Below the pieces are notes generated by a model. It made no database searches and was not told the origin of the DNA. It saw only the letters and a list, made by a program, of their open reading frames with translations. This document shows positions 1,130 to 6,793 of a stretch of DNA of 6,793 nt, in pieces. The stretch's first letter is position 1; every line of letters starts with the position of its first letter. The stretch is taken from positions 1 through 6,793 of the forward strand of contig JASKJZ010000139.1 in the NCBI GenBank assembly GCA_030154385.1. The letters run 5' to 3'. The position numbers and the translations under genes are program-made. This stretch comes from Clostridiales bacterium. GTDB taxonomy: Bacteria > Bacillota_A > Clostridia > Lachnospirales > Lachnospiraceae.

Positions 1130-1924
1130 TTACAAAAGTAGCCACTGTATGGCAGGTTCCAGATATGTATTCCAGAAGTTCCAATCATGGATACCGGGGC
1201 TCTCTTGATAGCAAACAGGAACTCCTTCTTTTTGTAAGAAATCGTGGAAGCTTCGATTTTCTTCAATCAAAAAGTCTTCCGTCCCACATGCCATATAAAG
1301 TGCAGGGATATCTCTATTTTCTTCTTTATTGCGCTTGATTAAATATTCCGGATTATTCACACTTTCCGAAAGCTTTGTCAAATCTCCAAAGGTAGAGACA
1401 TAATAATCGTAATCCGCAATGTCATCTCGCTCACCAGGTTTCATTCCCATAATATTGTGAATAATCAGTGCAGAGGATAACGCAACTGCCTTCGAAAAGG
1501 TCTCGTGATAGAAAAGAGCCGTTCGAATTGCTCCAAAGCCTCCCATTGACAATCCACCAATAAAGAGATCCTCTTTTTGATTCGACAAGCCAAAGGTTTT
1601 GGAAACATAAGAAACCAGCTCCTCTCCAAGAAATCTGGCATACGCTCTTCCAGTTCCCTTTCCATCCAGATAAAAGCTATTTTCCCCAGAAGGCATGACA
1701 ATCGCCAGATTATACTGAAGTGATAGCTGCTGCGCCATGCTATTGGTCATCCAGTCGGTTGTATTACCTGAAAATCCATGCAGTAAAAAAAGAGTTTTTG
1801 TCTTTCTTTTATAATGTGCATTCCCCTCCATCATCATTGGCTGCAGATCATTTGGTAAATAGATATGAAACGTAGTAATTTTCATCAACGCTTCGGAAAA
1901 ATAATTAATTTGTAATAAAGCCAT
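1130..1924 (-). CDS. Alpha/beta-hydrolase esterase (tributyrin esterase/esterase D-like, CE1-type)
   Basis: A 264-residue alpha/beta hydrolase of the putative esterase family that includes lactococcal tributyrin esterase, esterase D and CE1 carbohydrate esterases. The opening MALLQINYFSEAL matches the usual start of that group. FLLHGFSGNTTDW (47-59) holds the oxyanion-hole region. The nucleophile elbow GLSMGG is at 124-129 with Ser126. The likely acid is Asp217 in GTEDF, and the likely catalytic histidine is His246 in GIHDW. The complete triad suggests an active enzyme hydrolysing short acyl esters, for example acetyl groups on sugars. No signal peptide is visible, so it is probably cytoplasmic. 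Its start overlaps the end of the deacetylase gene by 20 bp, and an AAAGGAAG ribosome binding site lies just before the ATG. The true substrate is not deducible; in this operon a carbohydrate ester is the best guess. Confidence 0.88.
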   Translation of the reverse strand: MALLQINYFSEALMKITTFHIYLPNDLQPMMMEGNAHYKRKTKTLFLLHGFSGNTTDWMTNSMAQQLSLQYNLAIVMPSGENSFYLDGKGTGRAYARFLGEELVSYVSKTFGLSNQKEDLFIGGLSMGGFGAIRTALFYHETFSKAVALSSALIIHNIMGMKPGERDDIADYDYYVSTFGDLTKLSESVNNPEYLIKRNKEENRDIPALYMACGTEDFLIEENRSFHDFLQKEGVPVCYQESPGIHDWNFWNTYLEPAIQWLLL

Positions 1925-2774
1925 TCGTTTCTTCCTTTCTAAACGTCTCCCCAGCTTTTATCGTATGCGGCTTACCATCCAGGGAAAACCATAACGTCTC
2001 TGCCGTCGGATTATAAATTAGATTACCCTCCGCACTATATTCTAGTTGCAGATAAGCGGTTCGGTAACGATAGATTTCTTCATTCGTTGCCATCCAGATT
2101 TCTTCTTTTTGACTGGCTAGCTTTTCAAACAGAATGTCTGGCAGCTCCCAATTTAAGCGCTGATCAAACTCATAGCTATGACCCCATAAATAAAACAAGC
2201 GCGGTTCCAAAAAGGGGTTTTCCTCAAACAAAAAACGATCCAATACTAACATCAATTCCGGGTCATTGTGATGACAGGTCGGATGCCACTCTAAAAAATC
2301 CTCAGGCATTCCAAAGCTTCTGGTTGCCTTCACGGTTCTGGCATAATGAATACCGCAGGTTTTTAATACGCTGCGTACCCTTTGGTTATACGTCCCATAT
2401 GGGTATGCAAAGCCCTTTATCAAAGCGCCCGTAACTTGCTCCAGCTGTTTTCGGTCTTCGATTATCTGATACGAGGCAAGCTCCATCGGAATGCTCGTAA
2501 GATCCATATGTGTAAAACCATGAGCCGCAATTTCCTGTCCTTGATAAACCTCCTTAAGTTCAGAGGCAGAAAAGGTTGCAATATTGGTTGCAAAGCCATC
2601 GATTACAGCACTTCCCTCTCGCCCAAAAAAACCAGCACTTATATTAAAGGTTCCCTTGATTCCATAACGGTTCATCTTTTCAACGAGTCTTTTGTCTTGT
2701 CTGACACCATCGTCATAGCTGGTCGTGAAAGCCTTTTTCTTTCCTCCTGGAAATCTCATTTTTAGCTCCTGCAT
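1905..2774 (-). CDS. Polysaccharide deacetylase family protein (CE4-like, NodB fold)
   Basis: About 289 residues from the preferred start. The NodB-homology motifs are in order. SYDDG (about 19-23) carries the catalytic base and a metal-ligand aspartate. HGFTH (85-89) supplies the two metal-binding histidines. AYPYG (123-127) lines the groove, and WGHSYEF (197-203) is in the place of the late motif holding the catalytic histidine. The metal triad Asp-His-His is therefore complete. Family members remove N- or O-acetyl groups from glycans with a divalent metal. About 80 residues at the C-terminus lie beyond the NodB core and may form a small beta domain. No signal peptide is visible, unlike cell-wall deacetylases, which suggests action on imported oligosaccharides. 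The gene begins 12 bases after the SGNH hydrolase stop when the second ATG is used. An ATG at 2778-2780 is only two bases from the Shine-Dalgarno and is less likely. A third ATG at codon 6 of this call is also possible. Confidence 0.87.
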   Translation of the reverse strand: MQELKMRFPGGKKKAFTTSYDDGVRQDKRLVEKMNRYGIKGTFNISAGFFGREGSAVIDGFATNIATFSASELKEVYQGQEIAAHGFTHMDLTSIPMELASYQIIEDRKQLEQVTGALIKGFAYPYGTYNQRVRSVLKTCGIHYARTVKATRSFGMPEDFLEWHPTCHHNDPELMLVLDRFLFEENPFLEPRLFYLWGHSYEFDQRLNWELPDILFEKLASQKEEIWMATNEEIYRYRTAYLQLEYSAEGNLIYNPTAETLWFSLDGKPHTIKAGETFRKEETNGFITN

Positions 2775-2782
2775 TGCCATTT

Positions 2783-2788
2783 CCTCCT
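2783..2788 (-). promoter_or_regulatory. Ribosome binding site that decides the deacetylase start
   Basis: The minus strand reads AGGAGG here, overlapping the TAG stop of the SGNH hydrolase gene. It is eight bases from the ATG at 2772-2774 but only two from the ATG at 2778-2780, so the inner start is favoured. The overlap with the previous stop codon implies translational coupling of the two genes. Confidence 0.75.
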
Positions 2789-3956
2789 AATTCGTTTTAA
2801 AAAGGACCTCATAAGCCGCCTTGGCCATCACAGCCCCGCCCGCTTCGTTAGGATGCAGACCGTCTCCAATATGGAATCCCTCTTTCATATACTGCGGACG
2901 TTCCTCCTCTTCGATTGCCTTTGAAAAATCAATGACTCCATCCGCTATGGTCTGCTTGCGTATCCAATCATTAAAAGAGACCCTGCATCCCTCCGCCTCT
3001 GGTAACCACTCCATCGAATCATTACGAAACGGCATAACACTTCCCAGATATACGCGGCTTCCTCTTCCATGGGCGACATTGACAAATTCTTCGATTGCAC
3101 CCTCTAAATCCCTGGCCGTCACAATCTCCTCGGGCTTTTGAAATACATAAGGATGCATCATATCATTTATGCCCTCTAAAATCACAATATCCTCTGGACA
3201 ATCCAAATCGTAGACATCGGATACAAAACGCTTTGTCGCGGCAATTCCAAAGCATTTTCCTTCTCCTGGCATATCCTTTACGACAGAGGCATCGTGTAAG
3301 ACTCGATTTCCTCCGATTCCACGATTGATAACGGTTACACTTCCTGGATAGTTCTGATATAGGTTCTCCATCAAAGCATCACTGTAGTAGGACATGTGGG
3401 TAATCGAATCCCCAAAAAGAGCAATCGTTCGAACGGTATCCCTTGTAAAAGCCTTGATTTCCGATATGCCAAACACGATATTTGCCTTATTCACATCTGC
3501 CTCCACATAGGGAAATACCGCTCTGCTTTCAACCGGCGTAAAGGCATCGTTCTCTGTAAAATCACCGTCCAGACCATAAACCGTCTGCCAGCTTTTTGCT
3601 GCCCAGGTGGAGCATGCAGATTGTATCTTTGTCTTCTCTTTTATATAAAGCCGTATTTCAAGCTTTTGTCCCGCGGTAACTGACAGCATGCACTCATCAC
3701 TATAGAAGCTTTCCAACGATCCTATTGTAATTTTCGTACTCCCTTTATACGTCAGCGGCACCTTTTTTTGGTCGACCAGAAGTATTGCCTTTTCAATCAC
3801 CAGGTCTTCCCTTCCATATTGATTCGAGAAGCGGATTTTTATCTTTTCGGCGTTTAAGTTATTCCAAACCGTTGTTTTTTGTGTGATATTTTCTATGGTT
3901 CCAATCGTGGTTCCATAATCAATTGGCAGATAGCTCCAGGAAGTTTTCCATTCCAT
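2787..3956 (-). CDS. SGNH/GDSL-type hydrolase with N-terminal accessory domain
   Basis: 389 residues from the ATG at 3954-3956. The first ~170 residues are beta-rich and resemble an accessory domain. The SGNH hydrolase core follows. Block I is FGDSITH with Ser184 as nucleophile. Block II is RGIGGNR around 212-218. Block III is GIND with Asn264, and block V is DGLHPNEAG with the Asp365/His368 pair. All catalytic and oxyanion-hole positions are present, so it should be an active esterase or acetyl-esterase acting on glycan O-acyl groups. There is no signal peptide. The start is preceded by AAAGGATG at a suitable distance. An in-frame ATG at 4010 would add 18 residues but would place the start on top of the divergent promoter. 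This is the first gene of the operon, divergent from the truncated AraC-family regulator, and only six bases separate its stop from the first possible deacetylase ATG. Confidence 0.86.
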   Translation of the reverse strand: MEWKTSWSYLPIDYGTTIGTIENITQKTTVWNNLNAEKIKIRFSNQYGREDLVIEKAILLVDQKKVPLTYKGSTKITIGSLESFYSDECMLSVTAGQKLEIRLYIKEKTKIQSACSTWAAKSWQTVYGLDGDFTENDAFTPVESRAVFPYVEADVNKANIVFGISEIKAFTRDTVRTIALFGDSITHMSYYSDALMENLYQNYPGSVTVINRGIGGNRVLHDASVVKDMPGEGKCFGIAATKRFVSDVYDLDCPEDIVILEGINDMMHPYVFQKPEEIVTARDLEGAIEEFVNVAHGRGSRVYLGSVMPFRNDSMEWLPEAEGCRVSFNDWIRKQTIADGVIDFSKAIEEEERPQYMKEGFHIGDGLHPNEAGGAVMAKAAYEVLFKTN

Positions 3957-3995
3957 ACAAATCCCATCCTTTCTTATTTTCACTTTTCTTTTTGC

Positions 3996-4007
3996 ATACC
4001 CTGGTAT
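3996..4007. promoter_or_regulatory. Possible operator: small inverted repeat in the divergent promoter
   Basis: ATACC-CT-GGTAT is a perfect 5+5 bp inverted repeat with a 2-bp centre. It lies in the spacer between the -35 and -10 of the regulator promoter and just downstream of the candidate operon promoter. A protein bound here could shut off the regulator promoter. Palindromes this short occur by chance, and AraC-family proteins usually bind direct repeats, so this is only a candidate. Confidence 0.28.
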
Positions 4008-4012
4008 CAAAT

Positions 4013-4038: not shown

Positions 4039-4484
4039 ATGGCTAAACTTTACGAATCCTTTAATGATACTTTCGATCAGTTGCCTGTCAAACTGTATCG
4101 GCACGACTTGGCTGGCGAATACATATGGGCACCCTTGCATTGGCATCGCAGCATCGAGCTTCTGATTACCTTTGAAGGGCACTTGGCCTTCAATATCGGA
4201 AGTGATAACTTTCATTTTATTGAAGATGATTGGATGATTGTCAATAGCAGTCAGCTTCATTCCTCTCGCTATGTCAATCCAAGTGATCATTTTCGCGGTA
4301 TCTCCATCCTCTTTTCTCTTCCCTTTATCGAATCCTGGATTGGAAAAGGCTCTTTTTTTTATAATCCTCATATACCAGAAGTGACGAATCGGATCAAGGA
4401 TCTGGCACTTGATTTTTATGATCATGCCTCGGATGCTCCCTTTTATGCACTGTCCTTCATGAGTAAAGTATATGAGCTTCTCTA
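4039..4484 (+). pseudogene. AraC-family transcriptional regulator, cut off by a group II intron
   Basis: The frame gives 148 residues and ends at a TAG partly created by the intron junction. AraC-family regulators of this shape are usually about 270-300 residues. What remains is the N-terminal cupin-type sensor half: HWHRSIELLIT (about 35-45) and the following EGHLAFNIG resemble the sugar- or ligand-binding beta-barrel. The linker helix ending SKVYELL follows. The two helix-turn-helix motifs that bind DNA are missing. The last intact bases before the junction are TA, so the next residue was probably Tyr (TAT/TAC), continuing the helix. The remaining coding sequence should lie beyond the far end of the intron, outside the window. 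Because the intron is antisense to this gene, it cannot be spliced from this mRNA. The gene is divergent from the hydrolase operon and was probably its regulator, so that control may be lost here. Confidence 0.82.
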
Positions 4485-4556
4485 GTAGGTCATGAGCGCT
4501 TGCGCGCCCAAGCCCCTATTCAAAACCGTACGTGCCCTATTAAGGCATACGGCTTT
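4485..4556 (-). ncRNA. Group II intron domains V and VI
   Basis: Domain V (34 nt, 4556-4523) starts with the AGC catalytic-triad stem AAAGCCGTA, which pairs with TACGGTTT. It has the two-base CG bulge on the 3' side and an upper TGCC/GGCA helix. The stem closely resembles the conserved domain V of bacterial introns. Domain VI follows: a GGGCGC-GCAA-GCGCTC hairpin with a GNRA loop, a TAGG/CCTA base stem, and an unpaired A (4490, or alternatively 4493) near the 3' end that could be the branch point. The 3' splice site is placed after AC at 4485; an error of one or two bases is possible. Confidence 0.85.
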
Positions 4557-5250
4557 TCACTCTACATTCATTTATTATCTATAAAACAGACTAACCTTGA
4601 TTTCTGGTTCTAGTAATGGGAAAGTTCGCAGCAAGCCATTGAAGAATGTATCAATTGTATAACTTTTCTTCTGGCTTCTACGATTAAGCCATTTAAACAA
4701 CAACCATTTTGTCTGCGAGAGAAAGTTCTTTACCTCCTTCGTATTATCGGTGACCCCATAATACTGATAGTGTCCCCTTAATTTCGCATTTATCGTTTTA
4801 AATATCTTTTCTAATGGAATTGTTCTATGGGCTTTAATCCACTCTTTCATAGCCTTAATTTTGCTCCGAAATTTCTTCTTACTCGTCTTTACTCGACATC
4901 GAAAGAAGCTTTTCTTTCCATCCAGTCCACAATAAAATGTGAAGCCAAGGAAATCAAAGGTATCTGGTTTACTTTCTCCTCGTCTTTCCCTGTTTTGCCT
5001 GGCAAACCTCCCAAATTCAAGTATCTTGGTTTTCTCCATTGCCAGTTCCAGTCCGTATTTTCCGAACCTTTCTTGTAGTCTTTGATAGAAAACCTCTGCT
5101 TCCCTCTTGTTTTGAAAACAACATACAAAATCATCACAATAGCGTATTAGAAAACTTTGCCCCTCGCATTGTCTTTTAACAATTACATCAAACCAGTTAT
5201 CCAATACGTAATGCAAATATACGTTTGCAAGAACTGGACTTGCTCCATTT

Positions 5251-5282
5251 CCTTATGTGGAGATAAACGTTATGCCGAGTTA
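5251..5282 (+). repeat. Left 32-bp terminal inverted repeat
   Basis: It starts CCTTATGTGGAG and ends GTTATGCCGAGTTA. It is the inverse of 5572-5603 with 29 of 32 positions identical; the three differences cluster in the middle. It contains two copies of the 14-bp motif 17 bp apart (5253-5266 and 5270-5283), which looks like paired binding sites for a recombinase or transposase. Confidence 0.88.
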
Positions 5283-5503
5283 ATCTTAATAAGCTCATAA
5301 GATATGCCCATTGCTTTGGTTTTATCTCGGCATAACCTTTTGATACCAGCATGAATTATCCCCTCAACCTTATAGTGTAGACCGACAAATTTTTGAATAA
5401 CAGACTGATAATTCACCGCATTTATTGGTACTCTGTAATCATCAAATCGAAAATTTGCCTGATTGGAGCAAGGATAAAGATTTGATGGACTTTCTAAACT
5501 CAC
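5270..5503 (-). CDS. Hypothetical 77-residue ORF inside the nested insertion
   Basis: A 77-codon frame opens with GTG directly after a stop codon and ends at the TAA contained in the 14-bp motif (residues INSA, stop). No ribosome binding site precedes the GTG. The product is unremarkable: no signal peptide, no membrane segment, a mildly basic C-terminal half, and no motif I recognise. It fits exactly between the two identical direct copies of the motif at 5270 and 5519, which is how a cassette-borne gene would be arranged. The opposite strand has two short overlapping frames in the same stretch (ending near 5510, then 5511-5591), so strand bias alone does not settle whether either is real. 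It may be a decayed remnant of a larger element gene. Confidence 0.25.
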   Translation of the reverse strand: MSLESPSNLYPCSNQANFRFDDYRVPINAVNYQSVIQKFVGLHYKVEGIIHAGIKRLCRDKTKAMGISYELIKINSA

Positions 5504-5571
5504 TCAAGTGATGAATAATTATGCCGAGTTAAAATGTGGTAAATACAGATATTTAGCCACTGAACTAATAA

Positions 5572-5603
5572 TAACTCGGCATAACATCTAGCTCCACATA
5601 AGG
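5572..5603 (-). repeat. Right 32-bp terminal inverted repeat
   Basis: Its complement starts CCTTATGTGGAG and ends GTTATGCCGAGTTA, matching the left repeat at 29 of 32 positions. It contains the two mirror motif copies, 5571-5584 and 5588-5601, again 17 bp apart. Unlike the left repeat it does not abut the reverse transcriptase sequence: a 28-bp palindromic piece lies between. Confidence 0.88.
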
Positions 5604-5633
5604 CGGTTTATGCCGAGCTAGGCATAAACCGCC
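5602..5633. repeat. Perfect 13-bp-stem palindrome at the right insertion edge
   Basis: GGCGGTTTATGCC (5602-5614) and GGCATAAACCGCC (5621-5633) are exact inverse complements around the 6-base centre GAGCTA. The left arm contains the start of a 14-bp motif copy, and the right arm runs two bases into reverse transcriptase sequence. Nothing equivalent exists at the left edge. It could be a footprint of an earlier insertion or excision, a foldback duplication, or a folded recombination site. It is not followed by a T-run, so it is not a typical intrinsic terminator. Confidence 0.85.
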
Positions 5634-6272
5634 CTGCGGGGTTCCCCGTTCACTGTCTAAGTATTTCCCATTTTCCATAATCCCCGCATTTAAGAACTTC
5701 TCTATTAGTTCTAGAAACCTCTTGTCTGCAATGTCATGTTCTAGGAATTTCATCATCCAGTTATGGTCTACATTATCAAAGAAGCCTTTTATATCCGCTT
5801 CCACTATATAGTTTGTTTTCCTATACTGTACATCTTCTATGATTTCCCTTACTGCTTGGTGGCAGTTTCTGTTTGGTCTGAAACCAAAACTTTCATTGTA
5901 AAATTTTGGTTCATATATCATTGTCAGGATCTGTGCTATTGCATTCTCTACTAGCTTATCTTCATAACAGGATATTCCTAGTGGTCTCATTCTGTTGCTT
6001 CCATCCTTAGGTATATACACTCGTCTTATCGGATTAGGCTTATAGCTCCCATTTTTCATCCTCTTCACCAGATTATCAATGTTTGCTTCCAGATTTACCT
6101 CATACTCTTCTTTTGATGTTCCATCCATTCCTTTTGCTTTCTTTCCATCCATTTGTTTATGTATGGCTAAAAGCGTATCTTTATTGATGTAGGATGCTAG
6201 GTTCTGCACCTTATGGTCAGTTCTGTCTGCCTTTGCGATATTAAATTGTATTCCAAGTAACTCGTTAATCAT

Positions 6273-6793
6273 GTTGTTCAGCTCTCCTATGTCTGCACAA
6301 TCGCGCTTTACCTAAAGCTATAAAGTGTCCGCCCCTTCCCTCCATCTGCTTTCACAGGTTTCTTTGGTACTATGAGCGAATCGGACTTCCTGTCACACAT
6401 TTGGTTGTCTGTCGCATTTCTTTGATTCAACTTCCATACCTCAGAGTGAGGATATGACAGAACCTCAGCTGTTCCGATAAAGTACTTATCATCAACCTCG
6501 CCAAGTTCTCAGACTGGGGGTAGTCTCTTAACTCTCACCATAACGTGTTAAGAGATGTTGTCTGCTACGATAAAGAACGCATCGACCTAATCCCACTAGA
6601 TAATTATTTCCCAGCTCAATCACTTCACTTTCGTTTCGGCTCTGTTGCTCCCTGTCCTACGCTTAAACCTAGTGTTACCACTTCGGCTCCAAGGACTCGG
6701 TACAGGCGGTTGGTTAGACCTTACCTGATAGGATTTTCCTATTGTATCTTCATCAGCTTACCAAAGCTAGCAGAATAACTTCCGCTCGCTAGG
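6273..6793 (-). ncRNA. Group II intron ribozyme 5' domains (I to IV, 5' end missing)
   Basis: About 520 bases upstream of the reverse transcriptase contain no credible gene. They are rich in short hairpins, GNRA-like loops and purine runs typical of group II intron domains I-IV. Examples on the minus strand are CTAGCGAGCG with GCTAG nearby at the far end, the CACTTCGGCTCC region (plus strand), and GAGGGAAGGGGCGGAC shortly before the maturase gene. A plus-strand frame of 77 codons at 6545-6778 crosses these structures and is not believed to be coding. Individual domain borders were not folded. The intron's first bases are beyond the window. Confidence 0.7.

Follow-up and report, generated by a model that had tools for sequence, protein, structure and literature searches.

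What is the 381-bp sequence that splits a reverse transcriptase (RT) gene in the window (the whole 6,793-bp stretch of DNA analysed here), how may it have been moved, and why does it lie where it does? A first-pass annotation had described it as an unrecognised element. That term holds for the derivative, its target, and the anatomy of its junctions. It does not hold for the family, which is that of the known RIT (recombinase-in-trio) elements.

The Interrupted Gene and the Limits of the Insert

The insert lies in a group II intron on the reverse strand (4480-6793, the outer limit being approximate). The 5' ribozyme part of this intron is found at 6504-6737 (Rfam RF02005, 133.9 bits) and its 3' domains at 4480-4557 (RF00029, 37.1 bits, slightly below the gathering score of 40). 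Its RT gene is split into two parts, both on the reverse strand. The first (5634-6272) reaches the codons ...GTPQ, and its frame (5565-6272) matches TIGR04416 (1.2e-64) and RVT_1 (9.8e-19). The second (4575-5246) resumes at ...GASP and includes the maturase domain, the frame 4575-5216 matching TIGR04416 (3.1e-30), RVT_1 (4.4e-11), and GIIM (1.7e-8). Removal of 381 bp leaves an open frame of 438 aa; intact RTs, also of 438 aa, align with it across 100% of its length, at identities of up to 95%. Exact limits had been claimed from this restoration of the frame. The length stands, the 438-aa RT being restored; the coordinates are not unique, as three sliding positions read from the sequence (5251-5631, 5252-5632, and 5253-5633) yield an identical empty site. 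With the 6-bp crossover reading developed below, the insert comprises 375 bp (5253-5627) and one additional 6-bp copy, giving 381 bp. At the break, the native codons read G-N, since 115 of the 120 listed homologues have GTPQGNGASP at this site.

Sites and Ends of the Insert

The insert harbors a dense array of short sites. Seven exact matches to TTATGNNGAGNTA occur in the window, all within 5253-5620; 200 dinucleotide shuffles gave 0.01 on average. To these seven, already noticed earlier, an eighth is added here (5618-5627, reverse strand, one mismatch), which forms a near-palindrome together with the seventh. Two further features stand as first described: the inverted repeat, with 29 matches across the outer 32 bp, and the two sites of each end, which start 17 bp apart. 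A repeat finder stretches the inverted repeat to 5251-5288 and 5566-5603 (33/38). Just outside its right copy stands a 32-bp near-palindrome (5602-5633) that had not been singled out, with arms of 16 nt at 5602-5617 and 5618-5633 (94%).

Relatives with the Same Ends are RIT Elements

Compared loci and contig stretches are labelled L001 to L113. Genome contigs were scanned for TTATGNNGAGNTANNNNTTATGNNGAG, and nine of the 54 stretches obtained carry two inverted ends 3.4-3.5 kb apart (L003, L006, L018, L021, L029, L031, L032, L035, and L047). All nine enclose three tandem tyrosine recombinase genes; several further loci show a single end, with rit genes continuing to the contig end. The three rit ORFs have overlapping frames in L032, L018, and L011. 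All six proteins of L032 and L018 match PF00589, and pHG1 of C. necator, named as a RIT-rich plasmid in the available text of PMC3414803, is among the best plasmid matches listed for them. The earlier proposal of a multi-site enzyme such as a tyrosine recombinase is thus borne out by relatives whose paired, 17-bp-spaced ends enclose three such enzymes, and a search for a recombinase gene between ends of this type, suggested at the time, gave the three rit genes in 9/9 two-ended relatives. One related contig from Desulfofundulus thermobenzoicus (L004:1-3486) consists, over its 3,486 bp, of one RIT plus 6 bp beyond each end; its coverage is 373, and it is possibly a collapsed multi-copy element.

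The complete ends of loci that lie in RT genes are built alike: an outer site, a second 17 bp inward, and an inverted third 55-57 bp further. Both ends of the window insert follow this layout. The ritA-side end occupies 5253-5335 (forward strand), with its outer, second, and inverted third sites at 5253-5262, 5270-5279, and 5326-5335, respectively. The ritC-side end occupies 5519-5601 (reverse strand), with the corresponding sites at 5592-5601, 5575-5584, and 5519-5528. At the DNA level, the insert is 72-73% identical to L006, L019, and L023 over about 180-190 bp. Between the ends, the last 19 codons and the stop of ritC are preserved (5452-5511, forward strand; NLPDWSKDKDLMDFLNSLK), with 94.7% identity to residues 319-337 of the RitC of L016. 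The remaining interior (5336-5451, forward strand) gives no convincing recombinase match and is probably the former ritA leader. A 77-aa open frame on the reverse strand (5270-5503) was considered as cargo and rejected; it is antisense to the ritC remnant, matches no Pfam family at E up to 1, and is taken as spurious.

Three tandem overlapping recombinase genes, the hallmark of RIT elements, are present in L032, L018, and L003. The window copy, unlike these and unlike described RITs, has no recombinase gene. Because only the last 19 ritC codons are present, it is classed as a non-autonomous RIT derivative and not as a RIT element, in agreement with the non-autonomous status first assigned to it. 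It does display terminal inverted repeats in the RIT length range (roughly 28-34 bp) and, next to one of its ends, a palindrome, and it has both its ends and the ritC remnant in common with full RITs. Since the ritC C-terminus and both ends are kept, it corresponds to a RIT with nearly all the sequence between the ends deleted. Judged from its sequence, therefore, the insert is a miniature, internally deleted RIT derivative. The RIT family being known, it is the RT codon target and the stereotyped junction that look undescribed in the literature searched.

MITEs of bacterial insertion sequences are short, non-autonomous elements with terminal inverted repeats that originate by internal deletion. 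A plain MITE of a DDE transposase, its internal repeats being coincidental, would account for the size, the terminal inverted repeats, and the lack of an intact gene. However, ends of the same type flank tyrosine recombinases elsewhere, a ritC remnant lies inside, the target is a fixed codon, and the 6-bp regions differ at the two sides (GGCGGT and GGAAAT). The remnant and the common ends in effect refute this reading, which is extremely improbable. The window copy also differs from such MITEs in its mover, a tyrosine recombinase trio, in its single fixed target codon position, and in having six sites in its ends plus two in its palindrome.

The Target is One Codon Position in Group II Intron RTs

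The flanks of all ends were translated in the frame fixed by the 6 bp next to the element. The pattern used in the scan contains no target sequence, so that the outcome is not circular. Among 77 ends, 10 have no flank or one shorter than 45 nt, and 67 have at least 45 nt. Stops occur in 23 of these 67, which were left unscanned, and the 44 stop-free flanks were scanned: 42 match TIGR04416 (group II RT) and 39 match RVT_1 (E up to 0.01). L022, the flank of which is not RT-like, is probably one of the two that do not match among the 44. The 23 unscanned flanks include six that are RT-like by eye or by tblastn (L003 on its palindrome side, L012, L017, L023, L037, and L085); the rest look like other targets or chance matches. 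Loci L056-L084, which are re-fetches around the same genomes, are excluded from the end tables, and L079, which lies on a Sarcina contig (C36) represented by no other locus, is used only in the comparison of derivatives. The RT targets are diverse, and the break falls at identical codons in the RT flanks translated in frame. For this RIT branch, the point of entry into group II intron RTs is a single codon position (TPQG|G), and the insertion point in the window is not arbitrary.

A plasmid RIT of Rhodococcus pseudokoreensis, in which each of the three 6-bp places reads GGTGGT, interrupts a group II RT at these codons as well, so the branch is not confined to Firmicutes; it is the sole one of nine plasmid RITs with annotated RT pieces on both sides. 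L018 and L008, two Lentisphaeria contigs with TTATG-type ends, gave no RT match in their flanks by tblastn. The former has all three rit genes (L018:656-4169) and the crossover sequence TTTGCG; that of the pHG1 RIT is TAGCGC. RIT branches therefore differ in target.

Anatomy of the Junction

Read along the RT, the junction has a fixed order: CCN CAR, a first 6-bp crossover region (XR1), a 20-bp palindrome, an inverted second region (XR2), and the outer site of the element; then, past the body, the other outer site, a third region (XR3), and the RT again. In the window these are GGCGGT (XR1, TPQ side, 5628-5633), the near-palindromic core (5608-5627), ACCGCC (XR2, inner, 5602-5607), the body, and GGAAAT (XR3, downstream side, 5247-5252), the three regions being given on the reverse strand. 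The core consists of two head-to-head 10-bp sites, the seventh and the eighth, and its sequence is identical in L046. XR1 is foreign to the host RT and is the reverse complement of XR2, its inverted copy; XR3 represents the native codons G-N.

Of the 27 paired-site ends on the TPQ side, 26 have the palindrome and one (L085) is without it; it occurs at none of the 22 downstream ends of the scanned set. The 26 include five ends without an HMM scan (L003, two short flanks of L019 reading VPQGG and LAQGG, L023, and L037). The mirrored contig L011 contributes two of the 22 downstream ends and counts as one locus for orientation.

The rit genes run with the RT in nine loci (L003, L011, L016, L029, L031, L032, L035, L036, and L047), as they do in the miniature L040, and against it in ten (L002, L006, L021, L024, L025, L026, L030, L050, L053, and L055), as do the ritC remnant of the window and the RIT of L108. 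Where both are visible, the palindrome adjoins the ritA end in the first group (6/6, including L040) and the ritC end in the second (9/9). The side of the palindrome is independent of rit gene orientation. Both orientations might instead stem from inversion in place between XR2 and XR3, and not from insertion through either crossover region. These are mutually inverted 6-bp regions, each beside a TTATG site, and XR3 is the reverse complement of XR2 in 3 of 11 cases (shuffle mean 0.7; reached in 3% of shuffles); the palindrome would remain on the TPQ side. No locus was found in both orientations, with one genome per species, and the data do not separate the two routes; we hold inversion as a tentative option, somewhat on the doubtful side.

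XR1 is the reverse complement of XR2 in 15/26 ends (shuffle mean 2.8), or in 13/24 when one of the near-copies L050 and L053 and one of the two ends of L019 are dropped. The two differ in the other 11 of the 26; exact inverted identity is therefore not required. XR1 equals XR3 in 5 of the 11 two-sided cases (shuffle mean 0.7), and also in L030, which is kept outside these 11 on account of a degenerate second outer site. In the window, XR1 is foreign and matches the reverse complement of XR2, and XR3 is native; therefore, the 6 bp came in with the element, their most likely source being a GG-type site that it occupied earlier. L024 likewise has foreign 6 bp on the palindrome side and native ones on the other, the native codons being judged from the downstream GSVCSP. 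The foreign XR1 speaks to the arrival of the element and not to its deletion, and a full RIT could have been gutted here afterwards.

That the foreign 6 bp lie on the palindrome side and the native ones opposite in both informative cases would also fit a copy-out/copy-in route like that of SEs, with a strand-biased circle carrying the 6 bp of one side and an uncut donor. According to the text available from PMC10214605, SE/Tn554-related elements copy 6 bp from one donor side to one target side. However, the informative cases are two only, and the agreement of XR1 with XR3 in 5/11 and in L030 is neutral either way; we consider this route rather improbable.

Several loci deviate from, or widen, this picture. 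In L085 (1445-1527), a RIT-type end without palindrome directly abuts the TPQ side of an RT gene. L012 (2836-2918) is an 83-bp single end in an RT gene, again without palindrome, bounded by the inverted third site and the outer site, with the third site placed as if it were the element end. The palindrome is thus not always kept, and these two copies would need either its loss or the use of another site as an end. L019 (26-3538) is a RIT with palindrome, flanked on each side by a PQGG-like or AQGG sequence; either two RT insertions have rearranged with each other here or the contig is misassembled.

The pHG1 RIT displays a perfect 32-bp palindrome beside ritA (L086:2095-2126), and TAGCGC recurs at its far end; the 6+20+6 layout therefore extends beyond the RT-targeting branch. 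A simple scan of nine plasmid RITs for a gene-adjacent palindrome gave a score of at least 14 in four (L086, L107, L108, and L111), 8 or 9 in L109 and L110, and no palindrome beside the genes in L105, L106, and L112, so that the layout is established for part of the RITs only.

Other Short and Partial Copies

The window insert is one of several reduced copies. L040 (1.04 kb) has the start of ritA fused to the second half of ritC. L020 is 303 bp long and gives no recombinase remnant at E up to 0.01. Only a single end is left in L023 and L012. Sarcina sp. DSM 11001 has a 326-bp derivative with a degenerate ritC tail (E 0.001), copies of which, about 99% identical, occupy two RT genes or more; the same genome contains the full RIT L030. 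The RT flanks of these copies differ, reading G-N-I-S-P in L038 and G-S-V-C-S-P in L079. L038 is 99.7% identical to L051 over 326 bp and 99.0% identical to L079 over 315 bp; L079 is without the outer site at one end. L038 and L051, which each end at a contig end, may be halves of one insertion. Its occurrence in more than one RT gene, alongside a full RIT, supports movement of this derivative in trans.

The window copy might, alternatively, be a dead relic: a full-length RIT inserted, its genes were deleted in place, and the remnant never moved as a unit. Such a history would account just as well for the ritC tail and for the foreign XR1, and decayed or partial copies do exist, namely the single-end loci and the ritA-ritC deletion of L040. 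However, the window copy keeps both ends, the palindrome, and the crossover regions intact, which random decay would not favor, and the Sarcina copies indicate that such derivatives can move. A relic therefore appears unlikely.

A Model for the Origin and Movement of the Insert

The explanation that best covers these observations as a whole, and very probably the right one, is that a RIT lost ritABC and kept its ends, and that the resulting mini-RIT was mobilised in trans, via a circle with two crossovers, to its RT target. The deletion would have removed ritA, ritB, and ritC except for the last 19 ritC codons. RitA, RitB, and RitC, supplied in trans, would join the ends into a circle, the joint of which would read ritC end, XRa, palindrome, XRb, and ritA end. 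Either crossover region could then recombine with the RT gene of a group II intron, at the 6 bp that cover the G-G codons of TPQGG, one region giving one orientation and the other region the opposite, and the palindrome would always come to lie on the TPQ side. Strand exchange would occur over the 6 bp with no need for matching sequence. The window copy itself would have moved by this route.

A broader proposal, for and against which we are evenly balanced, is that RITs are target-specific "two-door" tyrosine-recombinase transposons, whose circle joint would carry two inverted 6-bp crossovers around a 20-bp palindrome and would allow either orientation, with the palindrome on one defined side. 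One branch, ranging from Clostridia to the Rhodococcus plasmid, would parasitise group II introns, entering their RTs at the codons TPQGG, and would support its own miniatures, as a parasite of a parasite of a parasite.

Comparison with Known Systems

RITs as known from C. necator pHG1 and C. metallidurans CH34 resemble the relatives of the window copy in having three tandem tyrosine recombinases over about 3.4 kb. An inverted repeat of 28-9 bp is mentioned in the available text of PMC3414803, together with an overlapping palindrome. Their target specificity and movement are given as not tested in the portion of PMC10214605 at hand, and no RIT movement experiment is reported in the available parts of either paper.

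GInts and SEs are akin to this RIT branch in their several tyrosine recombinases or related proteins, their site-specific insertion, and a 6-nt crossover with exchange of junction sequences. GInts are described as using 6-nt staggered cuts with heteroduplex, and SE/Tn554-related elements as leaving 6-bp footprints (PMC5385486, PMC10214605, each in its available text). They differ in their four-gene operons and, for GInts, in their cargo; a word search of the same texts found no mention of a palindrome for either. Identity with SE or GInt was rejected, the four-gene operon being absent and three genes being present in L032, L018, and L011. Tn554 also shares tyrosine recombinases, target specificity, and a 6-bp footprint (PMC10214605, available text). 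It is set apart by its gene set, TnpA/TnpB/TnpC, of which TnpC is not known to be a tyrosine recombinase. A text search of the literature found no paper that combines "group II intron" with "recombinase in trio", and no title on RT-targeted or miniature RITs in the literature searched.

RITs have been treated as putative mobile elements, and their need for three recombinases has been called hard to understand, in the parts of this literature available. The insert shows where one RIT branch inserts and what its recombination sites look like. With a fixed target codon, a readable 6-bp crossover, a palindrome on the target side, and a natural miniature devoid of genes, it makes a compact assay substrate, in which the miniature would serve as donor, an RT fragment as target, and ritABC as the supply in trans. 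The choice of target suggests a safe-haven strategy, the RT gene being conserved, often multi-copy, and placed inside an intron able to splice itself from the host message.

Wider Searches and Surroundings of the Insert

By blastn, the insert gave one 38-bp match in plasmids (E 0.3) and none in phages. A pattern search gave a match in 3 of 397 genomes of one family, and the junction pattern matched 1 of 391 genomes of one class; the latter locus, L113, has neither an RT nor a rit match by tblastn, and its match to the junction pattern does not fit. Among viral contigs, the paired-site pattern matched one (L001), where tblastn gave no match to rit or RT, and a stricter paired pattern and the junction pattern both found no match. 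L001 carries two TTATGTTGAG sites 17 bp apart (2043-2069), and an adjoining 180-aa frame (2088-2630) resembles by eye the C-terminus of a phage-type tyrosine integrase.

Elsewhere in the window, the reverse strand encodes a 319-aa protein (109-1068) that has no Pfam match at 0.001 and shows by eye a Walker-A-like GGSGVGKS motif, followed by a carbohydrate-esterase-like gene run (1130-4010) with esterase (PF00756), polysaccharide deacetylase (PF01522), and GDSL lipase (PF13472) domains. An AraC-type regulator frame on the forward strand (4039-4485; PF02311 at 21.0 bits, the cut-off being 21.1) ends where the 3' domains of the intron start (4480), so that the window resembles a nest: a regulator gene holds a group II intron, which in turn holds the mini-RIT.
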